Source of the DNA: Proteromonas lacertae
Taxonomy: Eukaryota; Sar; Bigyra; Opalinata; Proteromonadidae
Length of the DNA: 64,000 nucleotides
NCBI GenBank assembly: GCA_002245135.1
Contig: NGBS01000302.1
Span: forward strand, 103,018-167,017
Reading direction: 5' to 3'
Every line of letters starts with the position of its first letter. The stretch's first letter is position 1. A program made the position numbers and the translations under genes. Below the pieces are notes generated by a model, which was not told the DNA's origin, did no database searches, and saw only the letters and a program-made list of their open reading frames with translations. Below are positions 24,117 to 47,297 of the stretch, piece by piece.

Positions 24117-25238
24117 TTACATAACTTCTGAAGCTTGATCACAGCTTGGTCCATAATAACCTCTAAAACATGTACATAATCCAGTATTAGTATCACAAAT
24201 ACCATTATTACTACAGGATGCAGGTGGTCTAATATAAGATACAGCATATGATATATCTGCTACTAAATTATCATCTATCATCTATTCTTGTCATTCCATG
24301 ATATCCTGTTGGGAAATTATGATTTGAATATTCTGGTACAGTCTTTAATACTTCATTATTTATTAATTCTACTTCATGTTGTCTTCCTGATATACCTACT
24401 CCAAACCAAATTGATATTGTAACTTCCAGTTAAATTCATCTTTATCTGTTGCACAATCTGTTGTAGTTTTACCATCTTCATTTTTACATTCAACTTGTAC
24501 ATCTTTTAAATTAATAACTGAATATGGTAATTTATTAATTGCTTCTTTCCATTCTGCTACATCTAAAGCATTCAAACTTATCAGTAAACCATTCTCTTCC
24601 AAATAAATCTCTAAATTTAGCATAAACCACATTACCTTTAATATATCACCATCTTTTACTGGTTTTAATGTAATAACTTGTGGTCCTTGTGTATCCAAAT
24701 CACAATCACTAGTAGGATAATAACCATAGGGACATTTCCTATATGAGCAATCTGGTCCAAAATAATTACTATCACATACACACACAAATGAGTAATCACT
24801 ATCTTGTTTTTGATCATTATAATAATTTAAATAAAATTTATCGGAATGAGCAACATCAACATATTGTACTGATGTGCATATACCATGATTAGAACAGTCG
24901 TTTGGACAGGATGTTCTTTGACAAGCTGTACCTTCAAATCCTGGATAACATTCACATAAACCAGTTTGTCTATTGCAGTTACCCTGACCTGAACATTCTT
25001 TGTGGATTGGTTCTCCATCTGGATTTACTCCTGAAGCAAATGTCACATCATAAGGACAAGTTCCTATTTTAAAAATATAATGATAAATAGCTAGAATACT
25101 TTGTGAACAGTCTCCAGCTATATAACCAGGATAACAAGTACAAGCTCCATTAGCACCACAAGTTCCATGTCCTGAACAAGAATTTGGACATGCGAATATT
25201 AGTGGGAGTATAACTAAAGCCAAGTATATATACTTCAT
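24117..25238 (-). CDS. Secreted EGF-repeat (tenascin-like) protein B
   Basis: Paralogue of the gene at 20388-21741. A signal peptide ('MKYIYLALVILPLIFAC') leads into EGF-like units 'CSGHGTCGANGACTCYPGY', 'CSGQGNCNRQTGLCECYPGF', 'CSNHGIC' to 'SFVCVCDSNYFGPDC', a middle domain, and a final 'CDTNTGLCTCFRGYYGPSC'. The first intron is 36 nt with no stop, so unspliced RNA stays in frame; splicing yields 'CSQRTCPYD', matching 'CSGRTCPFG' in protein A. Frame breaks occur near 24423 (one base in GG) and near 24287. It lies tail to tail with the nucleoredoxin-like gene. Probably extracellular or surface-bound; ligand unknown. Confidence 0.78.
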
Positions 25239-27498: not shown

Positions 27499-29257
27499 AT
27501 GGCTAATAGTACTCGACCTAGTAGTCCCAGTTGGAGTTTTGGAGGAGATGGAATAGATCGTAGTTTATGTGATGGTAAAGGCAGAGTATCATCATATTTG
27601 TATTATATCGCTAAATAGGCGCCTGGACCAGGACTATACTACAATGAAGAGAAACAAAACAGTCTTAATAAAAGCCCAAGTTACAGTCATCTAGGAGGCA
27701 AAGGTGATCGTGACAAGGCAGAAAGACTATACATGGGTAAATTAGCATTTGTTCCCTCCAAAGGACATTCCAGGTCCAAAGTATGATGTAAGTCTAAAAA
27801 ATGAAACACCATCTTTTTCATTTGGACCAAACACAAATACATCAAAAGAATTACTCACAAATAATAATATTAATAGTGATAAAGGAATTGGTGACAAAAT
27901 CGGACCAGGCAGTTATTATAGTAAAGCTGACTGTAGTTTTGGCAAATTACCACTTTCAACGAAGAAATATGATGGAACCTATGCATTTGGCAAAGATCCT
28001 AAACTAAAAGGACCAAGGAAAGAAGTCAATCCGGGATTTAGTCATAGTTATTATGATATTACTGTGAGTGTGAAAAAAGCACCAGGTTTTTCATTTGGAC
28101 CAAGCCCCAATAAAAGTAAAACAGAAATTAGAAAGCCATTAGATAGAATAAGGAAATATAGTCCAGCAGGTGAAGAATATATAAATAAACAGAAGAATTT
28201 AGGAAGACCAGTTTCCGCACCAGAGTTAAATAGAACAGGTAAATCAACAACCACCACAACTATAATAAATGATGATGATTTTGATGGTGTAAATTTACCA
28301 GAAAGAACAGGTAAAGAATATATTCCAAAATTCAAATTCGGTAGTGGAAAAAGATTTGAAGAAGACAGTTATCAACCACAAACTAAACAATTACCAAGAT
28401 TTACACCAGGACCCAAATATAATGTTCGTAAAGATTATAGAGAATTTAGTAATAAAACATTCAAATTTGGTACAGCAGAAGATAGATATTTAGATACTCA
28501 ATTAAAGAAAGTGAAAAGAGACAATTATCCATCTCCAGCTGACTATGATATAAATCATATTGAAAGAATTTATGAAGAAGATATGGAGAGATTAAGTAAA
28601 AATAATAGTCGAAGTAATAGCCGTAGTGGTAGTAGATCTAAGAGCAGAAAAGGAAGTCCAAACAAAGAAGAATATAAATCAACTTTAACAAGCAAAGAAC
28701 ATGCTGAAAAAGCAGGTGATCCATTTAATAATTTATTGTCCTTCAAATTAGGAAGTGGAACGAGAGATAGTTTTAGTCGATTATATTTCCCAGGTCCTTT
28801 GAATAATGCTGAACCTGTATCACCTGGACCACAATATAAACTACCAGATGATCCACAATCACCAAGCTGGAGCTTTGGTGGATTAGGAATTGACAGATCT
28901 ATGATAATGAAGACAGCTGATAAGAATGGACCTATCTACGATACTGCTAAGTATTCCACAATGTCTGAACATGAGAAAGGTGATGTGAATCGTCTTGCAT
29001 ATATACCTGGTGGTGATTTTACTAAAGGTAGTAATAATGCTGGGATTTATACACCTGGACCACTTAATCAAGTTGAACCTTGTAAATTTAGTCCTGGTCC
29101 TCTTTATAATCCTGGTCCTATCAGAGATACTCGAACATTTGTCTTTGGTACTGGACCGAAGACAATTCCATGGAAATTAGATCCTACTGTTGGTACTAGG
29201 ATTGATACTCCTGGACCTGCCAGTTATGATATTGAAAGATATCGAAAATGGCCTTAA
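27499..29257 (+). CDS. Sperm-tail PG-rich repeat (STPGR/ODF3-type) protein
   Basis: Starts 'MANSTRPSSPSWSFGGDGID', then a 33-nt intron and about ten P-G-P-x-Y/F units: 'APGPGLYY', 'IPGPKYDV', 'KIGPGSYYS', 'TPGPKYNV', 'SPGPQYKLP', 'YTPGPLNQ', 'SPGPLYNPGP', 'DTPGPASYDI', many followed by 'FSFG' or 'FKFG'. This is the STPGR pattern of ciliary proteins such as ODF3/CIMAP, which bind doublet or cortical microtubules. The 'SPSWSFGG.GIDRS' opening recurs inside the protein near 28861, indicating internal duplication. One frame break lies between 'LYMGKL' and 'LFPPKDIPGPKYD' (about 27738-27750). Roughly 570 residues if joined. Confidence 0.8.
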
Positions 29258-29443: not shown

Positions 29444-30522
29444 ATGAGTATAATAAATCCTTCAACGTCTATTCACTACAGCTCTATAAAATCGAATAAT
29501 GTGTTGGAGCACCTAGGCTCCAATACAGTAATTACATTATCTAAGAATTTCTTCCCTTTAAAAGAATTGACACCAGTCATATTAACTCCAGCAGATCAGA
29601 AACGCAGCAGTAAGAAAAACAAATCTGTCAATAGCGGATCGCAACTATATAATGATTTAACCCATTCATCGGTGTATAAAAGAGTATTAATCAATAACGG
29701 AAACAGTATTACAAAGAATAAACGAACTGGATCTATGACTAAGATAGAGGCTGTGGTAAGACTTCAATCTTTTTTTAGAATGGTTAGAGTAATTAGAAAA
29801 TTCGAAGATAGAATAGCTCAATATACATCCGTTAGACATTTATTAATAATAGACACATTATCTCGGAGAGGAGACTGGCCTAAGACTGTCAAAACATTGG
29901 ATTACTTTAAAAGAAGTAGAATTAAAAAAGAGATAATGTCTTTATATCCTTTAGTAGAAATGTACAATAGTTTTGGAACTTTTAAAAAGCAAAAAGTAGT
30001 AATAATTAAATTCTTATTCTTATGTTTATTAAAGCAAGGTAGAGATACTATAACAGCTCATGATATTAGAATTTTATTAATTGATATTTTATGTACAGAT
30101 ATTCCTTATACAGATATTGAAGGAGCTCATGGTATTTTTTCAAGACCTCCTTATAATGGACAAGTGGATTTTCTACAATTTTATTCATGGTATGATCAAT
30201 TCTCTACTCAAATGGGTAAGAAAGTGTCAACATTTCAAATGGTATGTTTATATATTCAATTTTTTACAAATGTTCTAATAATTTATAGAAAATGAGAAAA
30301 TATCTAGGTTTCAATTTGCCAGATTACTTTATCATCAATTTTATACAATTGAAAAGTGCTTTTTATGATGTAGTTATTCAATTACACAAATATGATTCAA
30401 TTAGTAACGATATATTAAAATGCAAAGAATGCGGAATTATATTGAAGACATTTCGTTCTCTTATTAAACATACAGTTCAATGCCAGAAAAAAGCGCAATT
30501 AATTAAGAAAATAGTTACATAG
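29444..30522 (+). CDS. IQ/EF-like/C2HC family member 1
   Basis: First of eight paralogues. One 47-nt intron (30242-30288) leaves 343 residues. Order: disordered N-terminus, motif 'SQLYNDLTHSSVYKRVLINN', an IQ-like helix ('VVRLQSFFRMVRVIRKFEDR') predicted to bind calmodulin, 'SRRGDWPKTVKTL', a helical region 'FLFLCLLKQGRDTITAHDIR' and 'PPYNGQVDFLQFYSWYDQF' resembling a degenerate EF-hand pair, and a C-terminal C-x2-C-x12-H-x3-C knuckle ('LKCKECGIILKTFRSLIKH' then T-V-Q-C). EF loops lack the acidic ligands expected for calcium. No signal or membrane segment. Function unknown; calmodulin and zinc binding are inferred from motifs. Confidence 0.8.
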
Positions 30523-30707
30523 AATATTTATGTGTTAGATTAACTTATTTGTATATTAAATAGTCTGTCTGCTATGTTTTTGTTGTTGAAATTGTTTAAA
30601 AACAATCGAGAAACAGTGCTTTCTATTTTTTACGTTTTTAAAACCATTCACACTCAAGCCAAGTTTAGGATTTTTTTTATTTAAAAAAATAAGTGTTGTT
30701 TGATGTT

Positions 30708-31820
30708 ATGAAAAGTAAAATATCTGTAGATTCTAAAGTTTCACGGAGTGACGACCCTCAGTCAGGTTCTAAGACCCTTAGATCCATGTTTAGCAATAGA
30801 GTTATTCCTTTAACTTCTCCAAAGTCTCAGCAGTCACTGATGGAACGTCCTCCAGATAGTCCTAATCTCACCTGTGTTATGTCCCCACATGACGTGAAAG
30901 CCATTTATTGTCTTTCTCCTCAGTCACACACCAATTCTTTGTATAATGAATTAACAAGTCCAAAAACGTTCAGAAGACAGCTTTTGAGTATTGGTTCTCA
31001 ATCTTGTAGTAAGAGTACTATAATACCCAGAATGCCAAGAGATGTGGCTGTAGTAAAAATCCAGTCATATTGGAGAATGTGTTTGGTCATATTAGCAAGT
31101 AAGAAAAAGGAGTCTGATAGAGTGGTATGTTAATTATGATTAATTTATTGTAATAGGCTTTACGACACCAAATATTAGAAGATTGTTTGGCTAGAAAAGG
31201 TGATTGGCCAAATTTCATAGAAAATCCGAAGAAATATCTTTACTATTTTGGTAATAACCTCTCTAAAGAAATATATTTATTAGTAAAACATTTTTATGGT
31301 GAAAAAGTAACAGAAAAAGAAGAGCAAACGATTCTAAAGTTCTTTTTTAACTGTTTTTGTAAGAATAATTCCGATTCTTTAAGTGCTACCTCAATTAAGA
31401 AGTTATTGACAGGCGTGTTGTGTTTAACAGTACCTAATATCGATATTGATGGTCATAAATGGCATATTCTGCATGTCTCCTTACAACAATCATGTAGATT
31501 ATTTACAATTTTATAATTGGTTTATTAATTATAAGAAAAACACTCCGTTAAAACCAATGAAATGGGAATTAAAAATTTCTCGATTTTTTGGTTTTAATAT
31601 TGATGAAATATTCATGAATAATTTTCTAAAGTCAAAAAGTGCCTGTTATGATGCAATTGTTCAACTTAGAAAATATGATGAGTTAAATCCATCTGAAGTG
31701 AAATGTCCCGTGTGTAAAAAGAAAGGAAGAAATATAAGACATTTGATTAAACATATAAGTAGATGTAGAAGAAGAAAAGAAGATAATATTACTAAAATAT
31801 TTTCAAAAGGGATGATTTAG
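30708..31820 (+). CDS. IQ/EF-like/C2HC family member 2
   Basis: Same order as member 1: Ser/Pro-rich N-terminus, 'NSLYNELTSPKTFRRQLLSI', IQ-like 'VVKIQSYWRMCLVILASKKK', then a 32-nt intron immediately before 'ALRHQILEDCLARKGDWP', 'FFFNCFCKNNSDSLSATSIK', 'SPYNNHVDYLQFYNWF' and the knuckle 'VKCPVCKKKGRNIRHLIKH' plus I-S-R-C. One extra base in an AAA near 31456-31458 breaks the frame inside the conserved 'DGHNGIFCMSPYNN' block; exon lengths total one more than a multiple of three, consistent with a single-base insertion. Nothing else is damaged, so a sequencing indel is as likely as a pseudogene. Confidence 0.72.
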
Positions 31821-31987
31821 TGTTATGTATATAATAATGTGTATAAATATAGTGATAAGGATAATGGTATATATTTATTAATGATTAGTATAATTTATTG
31901 TATATTTTTAAGTTTAATTCATATAATCTTATTAATTTTAATTATAATGATATATATATTACTATTGGAACTGTTTTCTATGAATGG

Positions 31988-32006
31988 TATGCATGGAGCA
32001 TGCATA
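31988..32006. repeat. Inverted repeat TATGCATG-GAG-CATGCATA
   Basis: Perfect 8-bp arms around a 3-bp centre, downstream of member 2. It could be a protein-binding site or a small hair-pin; nothing else identifies it. Confidence 0.5.
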
Positions 32007-32089
32007 ATAAGAACATATAAAGAATTAAATGAGCTATTCATAATAACATATTGATTGTAATGAAAAAATTCAAAAAATGTAACTGACAA

Positions 32090-32109
32090 GGTTTGATGAT
32101 CATCAAACC
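32090..32109. promoter_or_regulatory. Perfect 20-bp palindrome upstream of family member 3
   Basis: GGTTTGATGATCATCAAACC is fully self-complementary and ends 23 bp before the ATG at 32133. A dimeric DNA-binding protein site is the simplest reading. No copy was noticed upstream of the other family members. Confidence 0.4.
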
Positions 32110-32132
32110 AAAAACCAAAAAATAACTACAAG

Positions 32133-33236
32133 ATGGAGATGCCTTGCCTAAACACTCCAGACTATGTAGAAAAAGAAATGTCATCGACGCATATGATCAA
32201 AAAATTATCAGGACTAAACATCGCTCTTTCTAGTACATCACTTCACAGAGTACCATCAAATCGATTCTGCACAAGCACATTATCTTTTGTATCGAATGGA
32301 TTGATAGCAGGATCTTCTTCAAATATTCCAACAGCACTTGTATCACCCAATAGCTTGCATTCAGCAGCTAGTTATAAAGATATGTGTAATCCTTTAGCAT
32401 GTCGTGCAGCATTGATGAGTTATGGAATACAAAGGGAAGTAGTTAAACATCATATTTTTACTCCAGAATACGCAGCTACAATGATTCAAAAGTGTTACAG
32501 GAGATATATTTTGAATTATCACATACGAAAGATGGAGAATGAGCGAATTAATACTCGACATGCTTTGAGTGAAGAAATCCTTCAAAGAAAAGGTGATTTT
32601 CCTTGTCCTGAAATATCAATACGTTATGTATTGCGATATAGAGAAAAAGTTAGACCTTTTATTGTAAAATTAGTTCGTCTTTTATTCACAAAGAATGTAT
32701 TATTATTATTATTTATATTAATTTTTAATTAGATTCGAATGACTGATGAAATGAGATTATTAAAATTCTTTTACAGTTGTTTTCTGAGTAACCGTGACAC
32801 ATTAGTAGATGATGAAATAGCTACATTATTAGTAGATATATTCTGCGTAAAAGGCAGTAGAAATAAATTTGTTGGTTCAAGTGGTATATTCAGTAATGAT
32901 CCATTTAATGGTGATAAAGTTGATTTTCAAAGTTTTTTTGGTTGGTTTAATAGACATAAATGTATGGCTGATATGCAATTATCCAATTTTAAACTGTGGA
33001 GGTTTGAAAGATTTGGTTGTTTTGGTGTTCCAACATTCTTTTTCGATAATTGTGTATTGTTAAGAGCAAGTTATTTTGATTTGGTTTTGCAGTTGAAGAA
33101 ATATGATGAAGTTAATCCAGGAATTTTCAACTGTGATATTTGTGGTTTAACGTTTTTGAAAATAAGAGATGCTATTAGACATCGGATATATTGTAGAGAG
33201 AAACATAAAACATGTAAACCAAAACCAAAAGAATAA
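32133..33236 (+). CDS. IQ/EF-like/C2HC family member 3
   Basis: One 36-nt intron (32697-32732) leaves exactly 356 codons. Motifs in order: 'AASYKDMCNPLACRAALMSY', a good IQ motif 'AATMIQKCYRRYILNYHIRK', 'LQRKGDFPCPEIS', 'FFYSCFLSNRDTLVDDEIAT', 'NDPFNGDKVDFQSFFGWF', 'CFGVPTFFFDNC' and the knuckle 'FNCDICGLTFLKIRDAIRH' plus R-I-Y-C. Ends in a Lys/Pro tail. Its intron position differs from that of member 2. Convergent with member 4 (145 bp apart). Confidence 0.82.
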
Positions 33237-33381
33237 TAGCATGTGTATAATAATTATTATGTAAATAATTTATTGACATTTTTTAGTTTTTATTTATATT
33301 ATTATTTGGTATGGGTTGATTATATAAAATAAAAATAAAAATAATGATAAAGAATAAAAGATTACTTAAATGATATTTTAT

Positions 33382-34490
33382 TTAATATTCTATTCTTTTA
33401 TTATTATTATTCCTGTGAAGATTTATAATATGCTTAGCAACATTCAATACTTTATAATCATTATAACTACAATAGGGACATTGGAAATCAGCAGGATTGA
33501 CTTTATCATATATATGTAATTGAAATACAACATCATACAATACACTTCTTAATTCAATGTAATTGTTAAAGAAATAAGGTGGAAAATTTGAATTTAAATA
33601 TTTCATTTTCATCTATTTATAATAATAATAAGTAATATATATATATATACAATTCTATATTTTGATATTTGTAAATTATGCGTAGTTTTATGTATTCTAA
33701 ACCAACCATAAAAATCCTGAAATGTGATTCTATTGAAATATGGAGATGCTATAAACTTATTGATTATTCCAATTTCATTATATTCACAACATAAAACATT
33801 TGATATAAAATTACTCACTTCATAAGCTGTTAAAGTATCTCTTTTCTTTGGTAATATACAACGAAATAAAAAGAATAAAATATTATATTCGTTTTCACAA
33901 TTATCATCACAGATTGATTCTATTAAATGTGCTAATTCACTTCTTAAGTCTTTATTATACAATTTTACTAAGAAAGGTAAATGAATATAACCTGGTTTAT
34001 CACCTTTACGAAGATACAATTCACTATTTAACGCTTTACGATAACTTTCTCGCTGTAAATACCTCATTTGAAAAATTCTATTTACTAAATGACGTCTAAC
34101 CACACTTTGCACTTTCACTATTTTTGGATCAGTTGTCTGAAGAATGTTTCGTATAGAATTCCTTTCTAGCCCTATTTGAAGCAATATTGGACGAAAATTC
34201 TTAGGATCAGTCATATAATCATATCCCGATTGTCTTACTCTGGGAGTTGACATAATACGACGAGAGCTCTGCCTAATTGACCTTAAAGGACTATTTATAA
34301 CAGTTTTTGGTACAGAATATGCTCTTCTGGGTGAACTTTCGCATTTTAATATACTGATAGCTCTATCTCGAGGTTCTAATTGGGAACTGCAAAGAGAAGT
34401 AAAATTATTCTTCATGGAGCTATTTTTGGTTTCATTAATAGGGACAGAGCCTGGAAGAACTGATGAATCATTTTCAATTGACCTACTCAT
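33382..34490 (-). CDS. IQ/EF-like/C2HC family member 4
   Basis: One 38-nt intron (about 33613-33650), placed like that of member 1, leaves 356 residues. Motifs: 'QSGYDYMTDPKNFRPILLQI', degenerate IQ 'KIVKVQSVVRRHLVNRIFQM', 'YLRKGDKPGYIHLP', 'FLFRCILPKKRDTLTAYEVS', 'SPYFNRITFQDFYGWF', 'NFPPYFFNNYIELRSVLYDV' and a zinc finger whose last ligand shifted: 'FQCPYCSYNDYKVLNVAKH' followed by I-I-N-L-H, i.e. C2H2 rather than C2HC. Reading frame intact. Confidence 0.8.
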
Positions 34491-34634
34491 CGCTTTACCA
34501 TCAAATTTAATTTTAAAATTAATCTATTTAGCTTGTGCAAAGTTTGAGTAATTCAGTTATTTTTTTTTATTTTGACAAAAATAGTAAAAGTATATAAAAT
34601 GTACTATACATATTAAAATTAAAAAAAAATCATC

Positions 34635-35735
34635 CTATTTACAAGGTATGAGGAAGTATGGATTATTCTTCTTCTTACATTGAATAATATGCTTTACAAG
34701 TTTCTTTACATTTGTAGAACTTGCAGTACATACAGGACACTGAAACAGAGGAGGATTACACATATCAAATTTCAACAAAGTAATAGCCACATCAGATAAA
34801 GAACTTCTTTTATATATAAAATTAGGAATAAATTGTTCTGGTAAATTATATCCAAAAATCATTGTTGAGAATAATGAAGATTTTGATCTGACCATATATC
34901 TAGTATGCTTCAACAATGCAAACCAATTATAAAATAATGAAAAATCAACATCATCACAATATGGAGGTATAAAAAACACTCCAGAATAACCTTCTAAATC
35001 AGTCTTTTTGAGATTTAATCTCATTACATCAACCACTAATTGAGCTAAATCATGAGCATGTAAAGTTTCATTGGGAGGAATTAGAAAGCATGAAAATAGG
35101 AAATGTAATATATTCACTTCCTCTGATATAGCAATACAAGGTTGAAATAGACGAGATAGTAAGTAAGTCAATTCTTTTGTTACATTACCAATAAAATCAA
35201 TATAAAATCTACTATTTGTTGGTAAATATCCAGGCCAACATCCTTTACCATTCATCGATTCGTGATATAATACTTCTCTTTCTATTGTTCGATTCTGTTC
35301 GTAAATTCTATACCTTCTGTTTACTATATACCCACGAAATACTTTTTGTATTAATATTGCAGCTGTGATTGGCGTAAATGACTTTTTGTGTTTTGACTTT
35401 ATTTGATGATCTGAAGCATAATTCAGCAAAGCGTTTCTATATTGTGAAGGATTCCTTAATTCATCATAAACTGAGCTAGATCTTTGACTTAACGAACTTC
35501 TGTGAGGTATTGGAGTAATGTTAGTCAACGATGAACGAATGCTTCGAGGTGGCTTTATTTCTGAATTTAAATTAGATCTACACAATGAACCATATTTGTT
35601 TACTCTCACAGAAGAAGATGAGCCTCTATATGAGTTATATTGTCCAAGATAATCTTCATCTTGATTCTCAGGAGTATTCAGTTGTAATTTAACAATTATA
35701 TTTTTTACTCCACTTGAATTTGTTGATACATACAT
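34635..35735 (-). CDS. IQ/EF-like/C2HC family member 5 (intronless)
   Basis: The only intronless member and the clearest: 366 residues in one frame. Motifs: 'SSVYDELRNPSQYRNALLNY', IQ 'AAILIQKVFRGYIVNRRYRI', 'MNGKGCWPGYLPTN', 'FLFSCFLIPPNETLHAHDLA', 'EGYSGVFFIPPYCDDVDFSL', 'GYNLPEQFIPNFIYKRSSLS', and the knuckle 'FQCPVCTASSTNVKKLVKH' plus I-I-Q-C. The N-terminal 90 residues are Ser/Arg-rich and disordered. The EF-like loops contain Asp/Asn at few ligand positions, so calcium binding is doubtful. Confidence 0.85.
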   Translation of the reverse strand: MYVSTNSSGVKNIIVKLQLNTPENQDEDYLGQYNSYRGSSSSVRVNKYGSLCRSNLNSEIKPPRSIRSSLTNITPIPHRSSLSQRSSSVYDELRNPSQYRNALLNYASDHQIKSKHKKSFTPITAAILIQKVFRGYIVNRRYRIYEQNRTIEREVLYHESMNGKGCWPGYLPTNSRFYIDFIGNVTKELTYLLSRLFQPCIAISEEVNILHFLFSCFLIPPNETLHAHDLAQLVVDVMRLNLKKTDLEGYSGVFFIPPYCDDVDFSLFYNWFALLKHTRYMVRSKSSLFSTMIFGYNLPEQFIPNFIYKRSSLSDVAITLLKFDMCNPPLFQCPVCTASSTNVKKLVKHIIQCKKKNNPYFLIPCK

Positions 35736-35938
35736 GATTTGCTAACTACGTTTTGTTTTAAAAATTAATATATAAATTTAAAGTAACAATTTGTCCGTTT
35801 TGCAAGATTCTGCAAATTTCTTGAATTAAACATAAAAAATATCAATAATATAAATTCCACAACAACAATTATAAATAAATTAAATTCTATTAGATAATAA
35901 AATATAAAAAATAAAAAATCACACTATACTCCACAATA

Positions 35939-37046
35939 TCAATTATGCCTCTTTTTACAAATAACAATATGTTTTACAGCATATTGTAAATTATAAAACA
36001 CTTTTTTACATACAGGACAGGAGAATCCATATGTATTTACTTCATCATATTTATATAAATTCAATGCCACATCAAACAACGCAGCACGATATTTAATGAA
36101 ATTTTTAGTAAATCTCTTCGGATATTCACATCCAAACACTTTTGACATTAATCTGTTGAATTTGGATATTTGAAACATATTTTGTGATTTCGCTAATATA
36201 ATATGACATAATATAATATATATACCTTTAGTATACCAAATATAAAAACCATTAAAATCAATTTCATCATTGAAAGGAGGAATCATAAATAATCCTCCAC
36301 TTCCTTCTAAATCATTTTTATTACAATTATAATGGAATATATCCACTAATAATATCGCTATATCATGTGCACAAACACTTTCACTATTTTTCTTTAAGAA
36401 ACAGGAAAAAAGGAAATGAAGAGTGTTTAACTCCAGTTTAGGATGTACATGTGGTTCTAGTAACCTTGCTACTAAATAATCCAATTCAGTATTTACAGAT
36501 TGGAAATAATTTCTATAAAAATCTGATTCATATGTTATGAATTTAGGCCAATCACCTTTTCTATCACTAATTTCTGCTAATAAGATATTTCTGACATACT
36601 AATAATACAATAAAAATGAGATATTATACTAATGTGTTAATACTCTTTTCTTCTTGATGTCTTATTGTGTGATATCTTCTGTAATGCTTTTGAATAGTTG
36701 TAGCTGCTTCATCTCTTGATATTCTGTGTGCTACTAAATGATGAGCTGTTCTATTACCCATTGTCAATAATGTCTGTCGATATGTAGAAGGTTTTGTTAA
36801 TTCGTTATATATAGACGATGCAGATTCTCTTCGAGATGAACAACAAGAATGAAGCGCAGCTGGTATGCTTGTTAAAGTATCTCTACCAAATTTGAGAGGA
36901 CCAACTAGAACTGGATTTGATGGAGCATCTGATTCAGTATCATTGTATGAAGTACCAAAACTTTCTCTGTTAGAGGAATTAGGTGTTTCAAGGTCGCTAC
37001 TAATTGCTGGTACTACAGCTATTTTCTTAACGTTGATTAGACTCAT
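35939..37046 (-). CDS. IQ/EF-like/C2HC family member 6
   Basis: Two introns (31 nt near 36599-36629; 33 nt near 36193-36225, the latter stop-free and a multiple of three) leave 347 residues. Motifs: 'SSIYNELTKPSTYRQTLLTM', IQ 'AATTIQKHYRRYHTIRHQEE', 'EISDRKGDWPKFITYE', 'FLFSCFLKKNSESVCAHDIA', 'EGSGGLFMIPPFNDEIDFNG' and the knuckle 'FSCPVCKKVFYNLQYAVKH' plus I-V-I-C. Both introns keep the frame exactly. Retention of the second would insert eleven hydrophobic residues near the EF-like module. Confidence 0.82.
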
Positions 37047-37245
37047 AATGCGATATTAGTTATACATACTTCACAAAATTAGATTTTCAAAAAAACGCAA
37101 TTTGGGGATATCTTTTGGCTATTTTGGAAACACCACATTTCATTTTAATGAAAAGATCAAAAACCAAACACATTTAAAGAATCCATACATAATATTATAT
37201 TAAATTACATTAAAACAACTATCTACATAAAAATAAATTAATATC

Positions 37246-38538
37246 TCACTTTTCTTCTGTTTGACAACGATTACAGTGTACTCTATGCTTAGCAATAACC
37301 TTCAAATCAGTAGATATAAAACTACATCTATTACATGGATATGCGATTGGAAAAATGGAATCATATTTATATAATTGATAAAACAAATCATAATAAGAGG
37401 ATTTCAACTGAAGAAACGTCCTATTAATTATAATATAATAAAAAATAATATATACAGCACAAACTGTTCATTAAATTTAAAACCTTTTAATTTTCTAAAT
37501 TTCATCACAATTCTAGAGGGAGAGATAATTTCAGCGATTTTGCTACTCCAATACCAACTGTAAAACGACTGAAAATCAACTCTATTATGAAAAGGATATT
37601 TATTGAAAATGCCAAAAGATCCTTCAATTTCATTTCTTTTATATACAGTTAAACCTAATATATCTATTATTAATATAGCTATCTGATGTGCAGTGACTAT
37701 TTCACACTTTATATTGCTTCTAGGGGATGAATAACAAGAATGAAGTGTATTTTCATTATTATCTTCTAGTGGAGCGACTTTGGCTGTATTCTTGTCTTTA
37801 TTACTCTCTCCTGGAGATTGAACAGTATTTTCATTTTCTATTTCCGATTCACTATTGGAATATGCTGATTTAATTAAACATTGGAATAACATATGCAGAA
37901 TTGATTTCTCTTCATTTATCGTTAGATGTTTATTAAAAAGTAAATAATAAACTACTTCATACAACTCTTTATTAGCTTTTGCAATTAAATTTTTGATTGA
38001 AGGATTATTATATGTTATAAAACCAGGCCAATCACCTCTACGATCTTGTGTTTCCAAAATTAAAAGATTTCTATCATTCTACAAATGAATATAAAATTAA
38101 TGGAAATACTTTTCTGTACATCTCATAAGATTCTATCCTTCTTCTTGTCATATATCTTCTAAATGCTGATTGTATCATTACAGCAGCAGATTGAGGAGAA
38201 TACAAAACCTTTTTTAATTTTCTTCTTTCTGTTCCTACACTTAACAACACTTTTTTATAATTAGTAGGATCTCTTAATATATCGTATAAAGAATGATGTT
38301 TAGGAAGTGGTGAGTTCTTCTTTGTATTTATTCTAGTGACTAAAGAATGTGATCTAGGAGGAGACATTTCACATCTTAGCACTGATTTAATCGACTGACG
38401 TTCTTCCCTGGATCTGCGAAGTATATCTGAACTATATTTGACTGATAAGTGTCCACTAAATGGTACTGATAATTCTTTATCAAGGTATTGACCTGGCAAT
38501 GATAATTCCGATACTCTGTTAGGAGTCTTGACTTGCAT
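37246..38538 (-). CDS. IQ/EF-like/C2HC family member 7
   Basis: Two introns (31 nt near 38079-38109; 35 nt near 37421-37455) leave 408 residues, the longest member. Motifs: 'HSLYDILRDPTNYKKVLLSV', IQ 'AAVMIQSAFRRYMTRRRIES', 'TQDRRGDWPGFITYN', 'HMLFQCLIKSAYSNSESE', then an extra acidic/Ser-rich insert of about 50 residues splitting the EF-like module, 'KCEIVTAHQIAILIIDIL', 'KYPFHNRVDFQSFYSWYWSS' and the knuckle 'YPCNRCSFISTDLKVIAKH' plus R-V-H-C. An AACG-TATA element sits about 40 nt upstream. Confidence 0.82.
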
Positions 38539-38577
38539 CTGTGAAAAGAAAAAAATAACGATTTAAATCCCAATTAT

Positions 38578-38594
38578 AAAAATTATATTCGTTG
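38578..38594 (-). promoter_or_regulatory. AACG-NN-TATA promoter-like element upstream of family member 7
   Basis: Reads CAACGAATATAATTTTT in gene direction, about 40 nt before the ATG at 38538. Same pattern as at 8601, 39762, 42138 and 49760. Confidence 0.35.
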
Positions 38595-38675
38595 TGTAAT
38601 ATAAATGAAAAATGATGAATATAGTGCTATTTATACTAAAACACAAATAATATTACAGGAAAAAAAACAATAAAA

Positions 38676-39746
38676 TTATACTGATAATGAGTAAATTAAG
38701 TCTGACAACAGAGATTCATCATTTTTGATTGATTTAAACTGAGGCATTAATATTTTACAATAAGCATCTTTATTTTTGTGACACATAGCAATAACACAAT
38801 CTATAATCATTCTTAATCTATTCTTACTTTCTACACTCTGTTTTTCATTACTACTTAATATATCAAATACCTTTACAAATAATGATGGATTATGTAATAT
38901 AACAATTGAAATTAACGGAATTGGAGCATTTTCAATAACATAATAAATATAAGTAATAACAAATGGAGTTAATTTTTGAAATAACAACATATCTTCATTG
39001 TTATTAACATAATTATTTGTATGATAATAACTCCATAACACTATTTCTATACAATCATTATCATTACAAATATATTTCTTTAAATAATCTTCTAATTTAT
39101 CATTATTATGTAGCAATAATTGTTTTAAATGGTTATAAAGTAATTTACCATAACTTCGCAATAATATTGTATGTGGATTTAATAAATAATTAAATATTTC
39201 TGTGTTTGTATGTATTGTTGAATTTGATTTTATTATTCTATTTGATATTGTTGTAAGGATTTGAATTTGATTGTTATAATATAGATTCTGTGACAAACAT
39301 TTAATCAAGCATTGTCTTATATACTTCACTTCATTTGCATTGGTTAAAACATTTCTGAAAGAAAAAAAGAGAAATGAATCAGTTGATGTTTGAAGTGTTG
39401 ATAAATAATATGATTTGAGAATGTGTTCAAATAAATAATGACTTGCTTCTGATAATGAAGGCACTGATATTATAAATTTTAAATGTCTTTGTTTTGATAG
39501 GAAGGTTAGGTGTTTTTGTAATTGTCTTTTTGATTCACTATCCATTTCTGTTATTATCTATTTTTATATAATTTTATACTATTCAATTTATACACTTTTA
39601 AAGTATTTAGCCCATCCAAATGCTTTATTAAATGTAGTTTCATTCCATTGAAGGAAACTAGGTGTCCAAACTGTAGTCAAAATATCAATAAATGATGATG
39701 AATTTTTAATAACAGCATTTACATCATATTTATTCTGTATTGACAT
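38676..39746 (-). CDS. FANCF-like protein (Fanconi anaemia core complex subunit F)
   Basis: Two exons joined by an intron near 39557-39592 (GTATAA...ATAG) make about 344 residues. The first exon encodes 'ILTTVWTPSFLQWNETTFNK' followed by 'AFGWAKYFKS', close to the FANCF N-terminal helix-turn that carries the W-x-P...ALQWARYL block used for binding FANCG/C. The rest is a helical-repeat protein; near the C-terminus 'IPLISIVILHNPSLFVKVFD' corresponds to the 'LLTLVTSRHPALSPVYLGLL' helix of FANCF. FANCF is an adaptor in the core ligase that monoubiquitinates FANCD2 during crosslink repair. FANCF evolves fast, so this is a cautious call; a divergent unrelated helical protein remains possible. Confidence 0.5.
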
Positions 39747-39761
39747 TTTTAAATTATGAAA

Positions 39762-39778
39762 GAAACGACTATATTTTC
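39762..39778 (+). promoter_or_regulatory. AACG-NN-TATA promoter-like element in the FANCF-like/TRAPPC13 divergent promoter
   Basis: GAAACGACTATATTTTC starts 37 nt before the TRAPPC13 ATG and 16 nt upstream of the FANCF-like ATG on the other strand. The gap between the two starts is only 52 bp. Confidence 0.4.
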
Positions 39779-39798
39779 ACAAAATCTTTTTTTTTAAA

Positions 39799-41168
39799 AT
39801 GGATTATTCCAAAGTGCCTTTTGAAATTAAGTGTATATATAACATTAATCAAATTTTAGTGATGAGGTTAACTCATGAAGCACTAAAATCTGATGAGCCT
39901 TCACTTCAATCAATTTCTGATAGTAATTTAGGTCGTGATGTTATTTTAACTCCATCTAAAGATTTACCAAAGAGATTTGGGTATGTTTTAATATAAATAT
40001 TTCTTAGTACTATGTTTAATGGACAGACTTGTAGTTTTATAGTGTCAATAATAAGTAAAAGTTCATCTCCAGTAAAAGATTTAACTTATACATGTGAGAT
40101 CCAAACACCATCAGAGACAATAACATTAGAAGAAGAAGAAAACCAAAATGAGAATCACGTTGTATTAATCGCTTATCTTTAAAGAATTAAAATAGAAATC
40201 CTCTGAAAAACAAACACTAGAAGAGAATAAATGCATTAATTCAATATATAAGTATTTAATCAATGAAATAGGAGTTTATTCAATCAATATCAATGTCAAA
40301 TTCTATGATGTAATAAAAGGAAAGAAAACAACAACATCAAAACTATTCAAATTTCAAGTTGAAGATCCAATCAAAGTCGTATTACAAGCGAAGAGTGTAA
40401 AAGATCATGTATTTATAGAAACAACATTAAAAAACATATCATCAGTTCCATTTCAACACGAAGTAACATTTGTTCCATATACTAATACTGATTGGAGTGT
40501 TAAAAGTTTAGATATTCCAACTAAAAATACAAATATTTCACCACAGACATCTGTATTTAGAGTAACTCCTTTGAAGAATAAACATTTACTTCAAGGTGCA
40601 AGTAGGAAATATTTATATTTAGTTTATAATACATCAGATTCAACAAAAGTACCAATTGTATTTTTTTAATTCTTTTAATTTTTATTTTTAATAGACGGAA
40701 GAGATAATTGGTCATCTTAAAATACAATGGTGGACATTAGGAGGAGAAACTGGAATAATTGAAACTGATGATATTAAAACTGAAGTATAAATTATTATTA
40801 TTATATATTTATTTATAATTGAATAGTCTAAAGAGAATGAAATGTTGATTATTTCCAATTCACCAGATGTTATTCATATCCATAAGCCATTTACTGTTAC
40901 TTTGACAATAACCAATAGTTCAGAAAATGATATAACTGCGAATATTAACTACAGTAATAACAATCCAAATTATACTAACAATAATGGTATTATACTTGAA
41001 ACAAATCTTCATGAAGATATTATAATTAAATCAAATGAAACTATCACAAAAGATTTGAAGTTTATTCCTACTTTGAAAGGCTTCTTTACAATTAATAATA
41101 TTAATATAATGGATAAAAGTGGTAAAACTTATAATATAGATCCACTTCCAACTCTATTAGTTCAGTAA
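39799..41168 (+). CDS. TRAPPC13-like subunit of the TRAPP complex
   Basis: Four introns (27, 34, 37 and 42 nt) removed, the frame is exactly 410 codons. Landmarks match TRAPPC13 in order: 'VMRLTHEALKSDEP' at the start, 'LPKRFGTMFNGQTCSFIV' (split by the first intron), a first immunoglobulin-like beta domain 'SPVKDLTYTCEIQTPSETI', 'FKFQVEDPIKVVLQAKSV', 'YLYLVYNTSD', 'GHLKIQWWTLGGETG' and the last beta domain 'IHIHKPFTVTLTITNSSEND'. TRAPPC13 belongs to the TRAPPIII complex, a Rab1 exchange factor in ER-Golgi traffic and autophagy. Reading frame intact; the start follows a 52-bp divergent promoter shared with the FANCF-like gene. Confidence 0.85.
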
Positions 41169-41277
41169 TTAACGTCTATACATATAATTAATTAATAACC
41201 TTTATATATTAATATAATATTTTAGTTATTATCAATAAAAAGCAAAACATATAGAGAAAGAAAGAGAGTAAATATGA

Positions 41278-42119
41278 TTAAATATCAAATTTGGTGTTAT
41301 TTATTCTTGTTTCTTCGAACAATTTATCATAAATAGCACTTAATGGTCCTTGGTATGGCAAAATGACTGTATTAGTAGGTAATTTCATCAACTTTTCTTT
41401 AATGTTATCAATATTGTTCTTATCTTGTTCAGCAACTCCTCGAGTAAGTGTCTTCATATAATAATCCAACACATTTCCTGAAAATAAGAAATTACCAATT
41501 TGATAACAACTACTACCTTTTGTATAACTTGGACAGTGAATTAATTTTCCTTTTCTACAACCAATTGTTATTTCAGCATCATCTTCTAAGGGGGTAATCT
41601 TCATATTTGGTTTAAGTTGACAGTTAGTTGTAGATTGTTTAACTAGATGATCTGCACATAATGTAAGATCATCTTTATGAATATAAATTGGAATATCAAA
41701 ATTACGATATAATGCATCAGATTCACTCATAGTAAACATTTGTCCACTGGTTAAATGGATAGAAGTGACTTCTACTTGACATTGTTCAGCTGCTCTCAAT
41801 ATTGCATCATAAGAACAACTTGGATCAATTATAGTGCCTAAATACAATACATAAAAATAATTAATATATGCCTTGACAAGTATCTGGAGTATAAACCAAC
41901 CAAGTATTCAATTTCCTTTTATTTTGGATCATGAATGATTGTAATACTGGTAACTATGTTTAAACAGTAAATAAATTTAAACAATACTTTCTTCTGAGCA
42001 TTTTCTTCTTCAGGTGCTTTTTTCATATTCTTTGTTAAATTAACATGTCTACCACCTCTACCGCAACTACAAATACCACCAAAGAATCTCTTAGGAAGCT
42101 TAACAAATGAACGAAGCAT
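41278..42119 (-). CDS. Metallo-beta-lactamase-fold (glyoxalase II-like) mitochondrial pseudoenzyme
   Basis: A presequence-like leader ('MLRSFVKLPKRFFGGICSC') precedes a complete MBL fold. Collinear landmarks are present with the metal ligands replaced: 'GTIIDPSCSYDAIL', 'SIHLTSGQMF' where THxHxDH is expected, 'IPIYIHKDDLTLC', 'LIHCPSYTKGSSCYQIG' for HTPGHTPGS, 'FLFSGNVLD' for LFSGDTLF, 'VILPYQGPLSAIYDK' for LPGHGP. All histidines and the bridging aspartate are lost, so hydrolysis is unlikely. Introns: 34 nt after 'ENAQKK' and another ending at 41838, which may use a GC donor (34 nt) or a GTCAAG donor (40 nt); both keep frame. 255-257 residues. Likely a binding or structural protein in mitochondria. 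Confidence 0.78.
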
Positions 42120-42137
42120 GAATGAATTATGATGTTC

Positions 42138-42154
42138 AAAAATATATCCGTTTC
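42138..42154 (-). promoter_or_regulatory. AACG-NN-TATA promoter-like element upstream of the MBL-fold gene
   Basis: GAAACGGATATATTTTT in gene direction, starting about 35 nt before the ATG at 42119. Confidence 0.4.
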
Positions 42155-42368
42155 AACTAATTAAAAAAGTTAAATAAAGGTCATAGGAATTAAAGAATAC
42201 AACATCATTTGATAATTAAAGTCCATCTCCACAACATTACATTTAAACGTGTTTATCTTTTCAATCAGTTGTAATGGATTTAAAAATCGGTTTTCGGATC
42301 ATTTCGTTGTTATTTTAAAATTATCAACAACGGGTGTATTAATTTAATAACTTTTAAAATTAAAACTT

Positions 42369-43620
42369 ATGATTCAGACATCCCTTACCAAATTCTGTTA
42401 ATGTAGAACTTCCTACCTACTATTCAATCGAAAATAATATCATTTCTCCATCAAATTTGGCCAAAATAAGTATACCTGAAGAACCACAAAAATCATCAAG
42501 TTATGACACTTCTACAATCAATACTTTAAAGTTACATGTTAAGAGTAATTTAGTAATAACCACCCCTCCAGCATTAATGATATCTACATCTGACACATAC
42601 AAAAGATTAACCACAAAATCATCAGCCTCAAATATGTTAATTGGGTATGCAAAGAGAAAATCAGGCCACATACCTATAGTAACACCTCCATTTACTCCAA
42701 CTAGTCGCTCTAATTTACCAATAATGCCTATAACACCTACAGCTGCTCAACTTTCTTCAGAAGTGCAAAGTCCATTCATACGAAGAATGTGTGACTGTTA
42801 CAGATTCTGAACATTTATTTGATTTTAATTTTACAAGTCCTGTTTGTACATCATCTCAGAGAGACAAAAAGAATATGGCAGCAATAAAAATACAAAAAAC
42901 GTTTAGATCTTGGGTTGTAAGGTTGAAATATAGAATAGAAGAACAAAAAAGAATTGTATATATAAATTAAGCACATATATATTTATTAAATAGAATACTT
43001 TCTTCACAGTTTGTAGAGAATGTATTAATGTTGAAGAAATTAACTTTAAATACCTAAAAGAAATGTGTCCCTGTGCTTATCAGAAAGTATACAAAGTAAA
43101 TGAACAATTATTATTGCGAATAAAGAAACAATTCATTGAAGCAAAGGAAGAATCAGAAAAAGAAGAGTTATTCTACTTTTTCTTTAAAATATGTAATTCT
43201 TCAGATGAAGATGATTATATATCACATAGACTGTCAGAATTACTGTTTGTTAGTTTTACTGATGTGAAAATCTCTTCCAAGAAATTATATCAGAAATTCC
43301 ATGAAATTGATCCACATTATCACAATAAATTGAAATGTAAAGATTTATTTAATTTATATACGAATCTTTGTAAAGAGAAGAATTCAGTAGGTGATATGAT
43401 AACATCTTCTTTTAGGAAGTGTATTCCTTCTAAGAACAGAATATGTAGGACTTTTGTTGATCATTTTATAAAAATGAGAATTGAAAGTTTCAGTCTAATG
43501 ACCAATGGGGGAAAGTATCTCATTTGCAATTCAGGAAAGTTTGCATGTAATAAATGTCACAGTTTTGTTGGTAATTCTATCTTACAGTTGGCCAAACACA
43601 AAAGATTGTGTAATTGTTAG
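42369..43620 (+). CDS. IQ/EF-like/C2HC family member 8 (divergent)
   Basis: Separated from the other members by three unrelated genes. It keeps the family order with weaker motifs: 'SDTYKRLTTKSSASNMLIGY' (family Y-motif), a long Thr/Pro-rich insert, an IQ motif 'AAIKIQKTFRSWVVRLKYRI', a 37-nt intron at the place used in members 2, 6 and 7, a cysteine-bearing replacement of R[KR]GDWP ('KEMCPCAYQKVYK'), helical segment 'EELFYFFFKICNSSDEDDYI' and the terminal knuckle 'FACNKCHSFVGNSILQLAKH' plus K-R-L-C. Two frame breaks (just after the ATG and near 42800) make the N-terminal model tentative. Basal or fast-evolving copy. Confidence 0.65.
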
Positions 43621-43704: not shown

Positions 43705-45380
43705 ATATTCGTTACATTTTGACACACAATTAAAAGAATGAAATATATTTCTTTATTTCTCATCGTATTTGTATCTGTTTCATTGGCCGTTCCTCCTGCT
43801 TCTGAATTGAAGGTACATATATGGCCTGAGCCAAAAGAAATGAAAAGTGGTGATAAAACTGTTTATATCGACCATAAATCTTTCAAATTCGAGACATCTT
43901 GTATTGGTGATGATGTGAGAGACGCAATTAAACGGTATTATTTAGATATAATGATGTTATAGATATACAGAGTTGTTTTTCTACAGTGAAGCTGAAGTAA
44001 ATGATCATGATGGTATTAGACTATGTAAGATAAAGTGTGTTGAATGAGAATGCTAGTTTAGTTCATGGAGTAGATGAAAGTTACAGTTTATCAGTATCTG
44101 AAGATAATTCTCCAATAATAATAAGTGCCAATACTCAATTTGGATTATACCATGCATTGGAGACGTTGAGTCAAATGATAGTATATGATTATGATGAAAG
44201 AGTGTATTTAATAACTGGAGCTCCCTATTCAATATCTGATTCCCCTGCTTATCCTTATCGATTATTGATGATCGATACAAGTCGTCACTTCTTACCCTTA
44301 AGATTTCTATATAAGATTATAGACAGTTTAACTTACAACAAATTGAATGTATTACATTGGCATTTGACTGATCATGAATCTTGGCCAATCGAGATCAAAT
44401 CTAAACCTGAATTATGGAAATCATCTTTTACAAAATATGAAAGATATAGTCAAGTTGAAATTCGAAAAGTGATAGAATATGGAAGAAAACGAGGAATTCG
44501 AGTAATTGCTGAGATAGATACACCTGGTCATGCATCAGCATTTTGTACTGGATGTATATATATATAAATAAATATTTATTTATGAATGATTTGAAATAGA
44601 TCCTGAAGTTTGTCCATCTGCAACTTGTCATTCTCCATTAGATCCAACCAAAAATGCCACATTTGAAATTTTAGAATCAATCTGGAATGAATTATTAAAT
44701 GAGAAAGATGGAATGTTCTTTGATAAATATTTCCATGTAGGTGGAGATGAAGTAGATATGAGTTGTTGGAATAAAGCTGATCAAATAATTGAATGGAAGA
44801 AAGAACATAACTATACCAATAAAGATGTTTACAAATACATGATTGACAAAGTGAGTGAATTATCATTGAAATATAATAAAAAGCCAATCGTTTGGGAAGA
44901 AGTATATAATAATTTTGGTAAATCAATGATAAAAGATACAATAGTTCATGTTTGGTTAGGAAATGCCAACAAATTAAAATCTATAGTAAATGATGGATAT
45001 TATGGAATATTGAGTGGAGTTAACCCATGGTACTTGCCTCAAAAGTATGGTTGGAAAAAGATATATAATGTTACAATCGATCGAAAATATCGATGAAGAT
45101 AAAGCGACATTTAGTATTAGGAGGTGGAAATGCGATGTGGGGTGAATGGGTTGATTTATCTGATTTTATGTTTACGGTTTATCCTCGTACATCAGCTGGA
45201 GCTGAAAGATTATGGACTCCAAAGAATAAATTAGATATAAATAAAGCTGAAAATCGATTACATTGGTTCCGAGGTTTATTACATCGACGAGGTATAGAAT
45301 GTGAGATAGTAAAAGCTGATGAAGGAAGAATAACTCCTCCTGGTCCAGGAAGTATATATGGCCAATAAGAACATCTTGTC
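43705..45380 (+). repeat. Tandem duplication unit 1 (hexosaminidase and its promoter)
   Basis: Nearly identical to 45624-47297. The shared block begins at ATATTCGTTACATTTTGAC, about 30 bp before each ATG, and ends a few bases after each stop. A divergent island lies at about 45019-45075. Confidence 0.85.
43738..45368 (+). pseudogene. GH20 beta-hexosaminidase copy 1, frame-broken
   Basis: Same gene as 45657-47285 with signal peptide 'MKYISLFLIVFVSVSLAVPP' and both introns (43935-43962, 44554-44599). Relative to copy 2 it carries three single-base insertions: G at about 44035, T at about 45081, G at about 45104. The first shifts the frame about 100 codons into the protein, so only a fragment would be made; the last two lie close together and with the first total three bases. 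They are not in homopolymers, so real decay or a mixed consensus of the two copies is as likely as read error. The catalytic 'YFHVGGDEVDMSCW' block itself is preserved. Confidence 0.6.
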
Positions 45381-45623
45381 CTTTATTCTTTGTGTTTATG
45401 TTGATTTTTTTTTTGATTTTATTAAATTCAATCTTATTATCATAACATATTGAATTTCAATGAATTATTTAATTATATAAGTCAAAAGAACACAATAATT
45501 CTACAAAATAAAAAAACACATTACAAAATGATATAATGTTCTTTGTGGTTCTATTTAATAGTTGGGCAAAAAACAAAAAACGCTCATTACTCTTATTTAT
45601 CGCTTTTTATAATTTTCTTAAAA

Positions 45624-47297
45624 ATATTCGTTACATTTTGACACACAATTAAAAGAATGAAATATATTTCTTTATTTCTCATCGTATTTGTATCTGTTTC
45701 ATTGGCCGTTCCTCCTGCTTCTGAATTGAAGGTACATATATGGCCTGAGCCAAAAGAAATGAAAAGTGGTGATAAAACTGTTTATATCGACCATAAATCT
45801 TTCAAATTCGAGACATCTTGTATTGGTGATGATGTGAGAGACGCAATTAGACGGTATTATTTAGATATAATGATGTTATAGATATACAGAGTTGTTTTTC
45901 TACAGTGAAGCTGAAGTAAATGATCATGATGGTATTAGATTATGTAAGATAAATGTGTTGAATGAGAATGCTAGTTTAGTTCATGGAGTAGATGAAAGTT
46001 ACAGTTTATCAGTATCTGAAGATAATTCTCCAATAATAATAAGTGCCAGTACTCAATTTGGATTATACCATGCATTGGAGACGTTGAGTCAAATGATAGT
46101 ATATGATTATGATGAAAGAGTGTATTTAATAACTGGAGCTCCCTATTCAATATCTGATTCCCCTGCTTATCCTTATCGATTATTGATGATCGATACAAGT
46201 CGTCACTTCTTACCCTTAAGATTTCTATATAAGATTATAGACAGTTTAACTTACAACAAATTGAATGTATTACATTGGCATTTGACTGATCATGAATCTT
46301 GGCCAATCGAGATCAAATCTAAACCTGAATTATGGAAATCATCTTTTACAAAATATGAAAGATATAGTCAAGTTGAAATTCGAAAAGTGATAGAATATGG
46401 AAGAAAACGAGGAATTCGAGTAATTGCTGAGATAGATACACCTGGTCATGCATCAGCATTTTGTACTGGATGTATATATATATAATATAAATATTTATTT
46501 ATGAATGATTTGAAATAGATCCTGAAGTTTGTCCATCTGCAACTTGTCATTCTCCATTAGATCCAACCAAAAATGCCACATTTGAAATTTTAGAATCAAT
46601 CTGGAATGAATTATTAAATGAGAAAGATGGAATGTTCTTTGATAAATATTTCCATGTAGGTGGAGATGAAGTAGATATGAGTTGTTGGAATAAAGCTGAT
46701 CAAATAATTGAATGGAAGAAAGAACATAACTATACCAATAAAGATGTTTACAAATACATGATTGACAAAGTGAGTGAATTATCATTGAAATACAATAAAA
46801 AGCCAATCGTTTGGGAAGAAGTATATAATAATTTTGGTAAATCAATGATAAAAGATACAATAGTTCATGTTTGGTTAGGAAATGCCAACAAATTAAAATC
46901 TATAGTAAATGATGGATATTATGGAATATTAAGTGGTGCAAATCCTTGGTATTTACCTAGAAAATATAGTTGGAAGAATATTTATAATGTTACAATCGAC
47001 GAAAATATCGATGAAGATAAACGACATTTAGTATTAGGAGGTGGAAATGCAATGTGGGGTGAATGGGTTGATTTATCTGATTTTATGTTTACGGTTTATC
47101 CTCGTACATCAGCTGGAGCTGAAAGATTATGGACTCCAAAGAATAAATTAGATATAAACAAAGCTGAAAATCGATTACATTGGTTCCGAGGTTTATTACA
47201 TCGACGAGGTATAGAATGTGAGATAGTAAAAGCTGATGAAGGAAGAATAACTCCTCCTGGTCCAGGAAGTATATATGGCCAATAAGAATATCTTATA
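45624..47297 (+). repeat. Tandem duplication unit 2 (hexosaminidase and its promoter)
   Basis: Second copy of 43705-45380; direct orientation, offset about 1,919 bp, separated by about 245 bp of unrelated AT-rich sequence. Confidence 0.85.
45657..47285 (+). CDS. Secreted/lysosomal beta-hexosaminidase, glycoside hydrolase family 20 (copy 2, intact)
   Basis: Two introns, 45854-45881 (28 nt) and 46472-46518 (47 nt), leave exactly 517 residues. A signal peptide is followed by the GH20 N-terminal beta domain, then the barrel: 'DTSRHFLPLRFLYKIIDSL', 'NVLHWHLTDHESWPIEIKS', 'IRVIAEIDTPGHASAFCTGY', 'YFHVGGDEVDMSCW' with the catalytic Asp-Glu pair, 'KPIVWEEVYNN', and 'YPRTSAGAERLWTPKNKLD'. The enzyme removes terminal N-acetylhexosamine from chitin oligomers or glycans by substrate-assisted catalysis. 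The first intron splits an Arg codon in 'DAIRRYTELFF', aligning with animal HEXA/HEXB. Probably secreted or lysosomal. Confidence 0.94.

Follow-up and report, generated by a model that had tools for sequence, protein, structure and literature searches.

In the tail of Nav channels an EF-like domain and an IQ motif occur together, and the cysteine-rich region of dystrophin and dystrobrevin places an EF-hand pair ahead of a ZZ module. Here, we describe a protein family of the protist Proteromonas lacertae that recalls both arrangements, starting from eight of its genes (M1 to M8) in a window of 64,000 nucleotides (positions 103018-167017 of contig C377, in an assembly of 50.2 Mb and 1181 contigs). 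We propose that the family consists of genome-wide, apparently lineage-restricted intracellular adaptors with an IQ helix, an EF docking lobe and a protein-docking finger, a proposal to which we give an even chance of being correct. The anatomy on which it is built, a Ser-rich N-terminus followed by an IQ helix, an EF-hand pair of the calmodulin-lobe type, more helices and a C-terminal C2HC/C2H2 finger, is strongly supported.

We draw several distinctions between this family and its closest described counterparts. With IQ-motif proteins (myosins and the C-terminus of Nav channels) it shares the IQ core, placed here in a predicted long helix, but relative to the Nav tail the order is reversed, with the IQ motif ahead of the EF module, a zinc finger is added, and no channel or motor domain was found in the members scanned. 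From what is generally known of dystrophin and dystrobrevin, they resemble the family as scaffold proteins in which a zinc module comes after a degenerate EF pair, but they carry ZZ and WW modules where the family has a C2HC finger and an IQ motif; ZZ was not listed in Pfam scans of the window pieces and member sets, and no direct comparison with dystrophin was made. The initial annotation, which was drawn from the sequence alone, knew of no described family with this architecture, and this still stands: Pfam scans and a PDB sequence search match single modules only, no known family claims the whole segment in profile searches, and none with this architecture was found in the open-licence part of the PubMed Central literature. 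Hence what is undescribed in the searched libraries is, as far as sequence comparison reaches, the combination of known modules (IQ motif, EF pair and single C2HC/C2H2 finger).

The IQ motif had been correctly recognised, with [ILV]QxxxR present in all eight window members. Across the family the core Gln is kept in 37 of 39 loci and the Arg in all 39, and the sequences fit the pattern [I/L/V]QxxxRGxxx[R/K], with the G position mostly occupied by another residue, often Arg. Pfam IQ (PF00612) matches 9/10 rows of one member set (E <=1) and 6/7 and 5/9 rows of two others (E <=0.1), with printed bit scores of 18.6-19.2 against a cut-off of 20.3 (M5, at 19.0, is just below the curated threshold), and the region also matches IQ_SCN5A_C weakly.

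The helical module that follows, which the initial annotation had called EF-like, is an EF-hand pair by its fold matches and by the sequence profile of its relatives. Structure models were made for two of the eight window members, and in both predicted models the module (residues ~200-282 of M5 and 196-272 of M4, modelled from exon 1) falls on the same calmodulin lobe, with the paired helix-loop-helix fold of the EF-hand superfamily (calmodulin/centrin-type lobe, Pfam PF13499). Unlike calmodulin and centrin, the family has a single lobe, fused between the IQ helix and the zinc finger, and in M1-M7 its Ca2+ loops are degenerate: 0/7 of these members keep a 12-residue loop that has Gly at position 6 and acidic ligands (first loop, judged by eye), and the canonical loop with both D1 and G6 occurs in 6/39 family members, for instance at the C802 and C245 loci, and in none of M1-M7. 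In M7 alone among the 39 rows, the first EF loop (within 37456-38078) carries ~50 extra residues rich in Ser, Asn and Glu. We therefore regard the pair, on its sequence, as an EF-hand by descent and, in M1-M7, not an evident Ca2+ binder, and the idea that the module binds Ca2+ in the cluster is not supported.

This degenerate pair is nevertheless the best-kept of six segments of M5. Relative to its two full-length orthologues (P0001 and P0002, from one source), M5 is 95/89% identical in the EF pair, compared with 64/61% in the N-terminus, 76/78% in the IQ helix, 73/70% in the next stretch, 84/82% in the helices after the EF pair and 84/74% in the finger, which suggests that the pair forms a protein interface. 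Such conservation despite lost Ca2+ loops would also suit a self-docking scaffold, in which the EF lobe clasps its own or a neighbour's IQ helix and yields closed or polymeric forms without calmodulin, since one chain carries both the IQ helix and the calmodulin-lobe fold, and calmodulins of IQ complexes (5wsu, 8zlx, 7yv9) are among the folds matched by the lobe. However, the models are single-chain and their predicted template modelling scores (0.60 and 0.40) do not fix the packing of the domains, and we consider self-docking improbable.

The zinc site was previously labelled a zinc knuckle. CCHC knuckles are spaced CX2CX4HX4C, and this label is ruled out by the spacing found here, CX2CX11-13HX3-5[C/H], which is complete in 35 of 39 loci; the site is incomplete in L014, L015 and L020, where the models stop before or inside the finger, and in L037_1733, which has an altered ending. 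In the window, as had been reported, seven of the eight sites keep the spacing exactly (CX2CX12HX3C in M1, M2, M3, M5, M6 and M7) or within one residue (an x13 spacer in M8), and M4 ends in His. Among the 35 complete sites the spacer is x12 in 30, x13 in 3 and x11 in 2, both of the last being readable as x12 because of HH, and the fourth ligand (taking the nearest candidate) is Cys in 30/35 and His in 5/35, with two sites readable either way. The CX2CX12HX3-5[C/H] spacing and beta-beta-alpha order of a classical finger are both found, the M5 model showing strand bridges of one residue each around 332 and 339, ahead of a helix at 343-357 (predicted local distance difference test score ~80). Profile A1 matches 1mey in the PDB at 1.6e-5, summed over the whole multi-finger chain, and 7mc1 at 0.0071, the best row in which one stretch passes alone, and Pfam zf-C2H2 is matched at a best E of 3.9e-4 by a member group (M5, 14.4-15.3 bits against a cut-off of 25.2). 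The family zf-C2HC_2/ZC2HC1, which we take to be PF13913, is not among the matches listed at E <=1 (the best 25 of 34 families, with HMMER filters that may drop weak ones). Judged on these profiles and spacings, the zinc module is a single classical C2HC/C2H2 finger: it shares with classical C2H2 fingers and their FOG-type C2HC variant the spacing, the strand bridge followed by a helix and the PDB profile match, and departs from classical C2H2 fingers in being single and in having mostly Cys as fourth ligand.

Does such a finger read nucleic acid? The initial annotation had raised the idea of nucleic-acid binders, and a version in which the single finger sits on DNA or RNA and is gated by Ca2+ through IQ/calmodulin can point to the profile matches with DNA-binding C2H2 fingers given above (1mey, 7mc1 and zf-C2H2) and to basic residues downstream of the finger in several members. 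Against this, Pfam scans (covering the window pieces and member sets, with the N-termini of non-window members outside them) find one finger per protein, canonical C2H2 recognition of DNA usually requires two or more fingers, and the prevailing Cys as fourth ligand recalls the C2HC fingers of FOG proteins, which bind proteins. The idea is thus weakened, and we consider it unlikely. Because a single finger is seen per protein, we favour a finger that would dock a protein partner rather than read DNA.

The family extends well beyond the window. Searches with five members as queries, M5 among them, together with a purpose-written spliced-profile aligner, gave 46 modelled copies genome-wide, including the eight in the window; with seven near-identical copies left out (C702, C817, C266, one on C1092, C495, C1170 and C1160), the count comes to 39 loci, spread over 23 contigs, and is a minimum, since only the best candidates are scored in the genome search. 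Control spliced-profile scores for 24 non-member 4-kb window strands reached at most 61 (P2) and 72 (P3), and the copies scored at least 151 with P2 (n=23, a set partly used to train P2) and at least 215 with P3 (n=15, a set kept out of P3 training). M8, which had no part in the building of P2, reached 182 with that profile, under intron settings slightly looser than those of the control. In translated searches the kinship of the window members is confirmed as far above chance (M5 against M6, E=3.4e-46; M5 against M3, E=3.3e-31). A quick tree of the 39 loci by maximum likelihood groups M1-M7 as one clade (Shimodaira-Hasegawa-like approximate likelihood ratio test 97) and places M8 outside it on a long branch; the deeper order is unsure because 17/36 inner branches are open. 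Hence the eight clustered paralogues first described resolve into a seven-gene clade and one distant member, together roughly a fifth of the family.

The common order of motifs claimed for the eight genes likewise stands in part. The IQ motif, EF module and zinc site do follow a fixed order, an order as strongly supported as the EF fold, the type of zinc site and the missing Ca2+ ligands of M1-M7, but the consensus strings were idealised: S.Y[ND].L..P is exact in 4/8 window members (relaxed form 6/8), R[KR]GDWP in 4/8 (7/8), P[PY][FY]N..[VI]DF in 2/8 (7/8) and [KY].YD..NP in 1/8 (7/8), with M8 lacking all four relaxed forms and M1 lacking the first. The N-terminus is Ser-rich, with low predicted order in both models. 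As regards a surface or antigen family, the N-termini examined have, by eye and without a predictor, no look of a secretion signal. A common N-terminal motif of the [LIV][KR]C..SP.R type was seen in just 4/30 rows, two of them near-copies, and we make no claim for it.

All eight genes lie where they had first been placed (Table 1), six of them (M1, M3, M4, M5, M6 and M7) with intact spliced models of 343-408 residues. Short introns of 31-47 bp, bordered by GTA...TAG, interrupt the genes M1-M7 except M5, which has none. After its frame break, M2 resumes conserved sequence in the next frame, up to the zinc finger. From the ATG at 42369, M8 reaches a stop after 10 codons, and its reading as open from ~42577, only if an inferred 181-bp intron is accepted, is unproven.

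Table 1. Family genes of the window and mapped modules of M5 (window coordinates)
Feature	Position	Strand	Description
M1	29444..30522	+	exons 29444-30241, 30289-30522; intact, 343 aa; IQ, EF pair, CX2CX12HX3C
M2	30708..31821	+	exons 30708-31124, 31157-31821; one-base frame break near 31454-31460, within EF pair
M3	32133..33236	+	exons 32133-32696, 32733-33236; intact model, 355 aa
M4	33382..34490	-	exons 34490-33651, 33612-33382; finger CX2CX12HX4H (His end)
M5	34635..35735	-	no intron, 366 aa; reference for structure model; orthologues P0001, P0002
M5 zinc finger	34683..34745	-	residues 331-351; ligands C331, C334, H347, C351
M5 EF-hand pair	34890..35138	-	residues 200-282; Ca2+ loops degenerate
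M5 IQ motif	35307..35363	-	residues 125-143, with IQKVFRGYIVNRR inside; predicted 41-residue helix 122-162
M6	35939..37046	-	exons 37046-36630, 36598-36226, 36192-35939
M7	37246..38538	-	exons 38538-38110, 38078-37456, 37420-37246
M8	42369..43620	+	remote member; open model from ATG 42577; inferred introns 42679-42859, 42956-42993

The M2 frame break and the want of a simple intact model for M8, along with the lost EF-loop ligands, could be taken as marks of a pseudogene array, a family in decay or rapid diversification that has no conserved function. We consider this highly improbable. Six of the eight window genes are intact, and the full-length M5 orthologues are 80% (P0001) and 77% (P0002) identical, with the core best kept, whereas M5, compared by exon, shares 23-44% identity with its paralogues in the window; the duplications are therefore older than that species split, in keeping with the initial view of the cluster as old but maintained. 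Elsewhere in the family, nonsynonymous (dN) and synonymous (dS) divergence gives a dN/dS of ~0.25 for C291 against C842 (dS 0.82, dN 0.20) and, in two pairs with dS >1, of ~0.45 for the two C352 copies (dS 1.29, dN 0.59) and ~0.27 for C1092 against C618 (dS 1.65, dN 0.44). Selection on the family core is thus strongly supported by sequence comparison. The near-identical pair C362/C702 has a dS of 0.019 and a dN of 0.003.

Small indels between near-identical copies also indicate that the M2 frame break may be a consensus error. The redundant contigs C104, C817 and C266 (loci L016, L021 and L023) differ almost solely in this way, with 20 gap bases and 0 mismatches in 3.2 kb and 28 gap bases and 1 mismatch in 4.5 kb; in the other near-identical sets the indel excess is less marked. 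Differences of this kind among redundant contigs are a sign of consensus errors able to mimic frame breaks.

How widely does the family occur? Among 5.8 billion proteins, three profile searches picked out 4, 2 and 2 relatives, and every one of them came from a single source (lgn); the search relies on shared 5-residue words, and distant relatives could escape it. By this sequence record the family is apparently restricted to one lineage. Relatives in one source group only argue against a core axonemal or basal-body component, in which the IQ helix and a centrin/calmodulin-type lobe would serve as a structural flagellar part. Several axonemal entries do turn up when the fold of the lobe is matched (in lists from which the absence of a family does not exclude it), and the genome holds 3 SHIPPO-repeat matches above the Pfam cut-off, 0 of them on the window's contig, while an open reading frame (ORF) with PGPxxY-type repeats lies beside M1. 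However, the axonemal fold rows may merely reflect calmodulin-like lobes in axonemes, and the rest of the neighbouring genes are mixed, and we think an axonemal role improbable. The ORF beside M1 (27749-29257) resembles SHIPPO by eye and has no Pfam match at E <=0.01. A Pfam search of the genome for alveolins gave 0 matches.

The window, with a guanine-cytosine content of ~27%, also encodes GatB, PPR, LRR, RabGAP-TBC and WD40 proteins. Two teneurin-like EGF proteins (EGF_TEN, EGF_2) lie at 20422-21741 and 24396-25238; a GH20 (hexosaminidase) gene occurs twice in tandem at 43738-47285 in near-identical copies, with ORFs 44037-44567 and 45892-46485 giving almost the same translation; and 52535-63118 is an intronless ORF of 3527 residues with three AAA_5 stretches.

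In light of this anatomy, what might the adaptors do? The proteins probably act as internal scaffolds. In the adaptor model, the partner recruited by the IQ helix would be calmodulin or a relative of the centrin/light-chain kind, the EF pair within the chain would serve as a protein-docking lobe, and the variable Ser-rich N-terminus may bring phosphorylation-type variation. With its Ca2+ ligands gone, the lobe of M1-M7, which presumably arose by local duplication, and of many other members would work without Ca2+, so that any Ca2+ input in M1-M7 could come only via calmodulin on the IQ helix; a minority of members outside the cluster could still sense Ca2+ directly.

A bolder and, in our estimation, improbable proposal is that each protein's own half-calmodulin serves its own IQ helix, within or between molecules, such that ~40 paralogues would build closed or chain-like scaffolds, Ca2+-switched in those with canonical loops and constitutively locked in those of the M1-M7 type. 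If true, one protist lineage would possess an IQ system of its own that works without calmodulin. The domain combination has been multiplied to ~40 genes in one protist lineage, in which Ca2+-competent-looking and ligand-free versions coexist. These versions offer a natural series in which to ask how EF lobes are retained for protein binding once their Ca2+ ligands are gone, and the family lets one ask whether a lobe in the same chain can serve an IQ helix.
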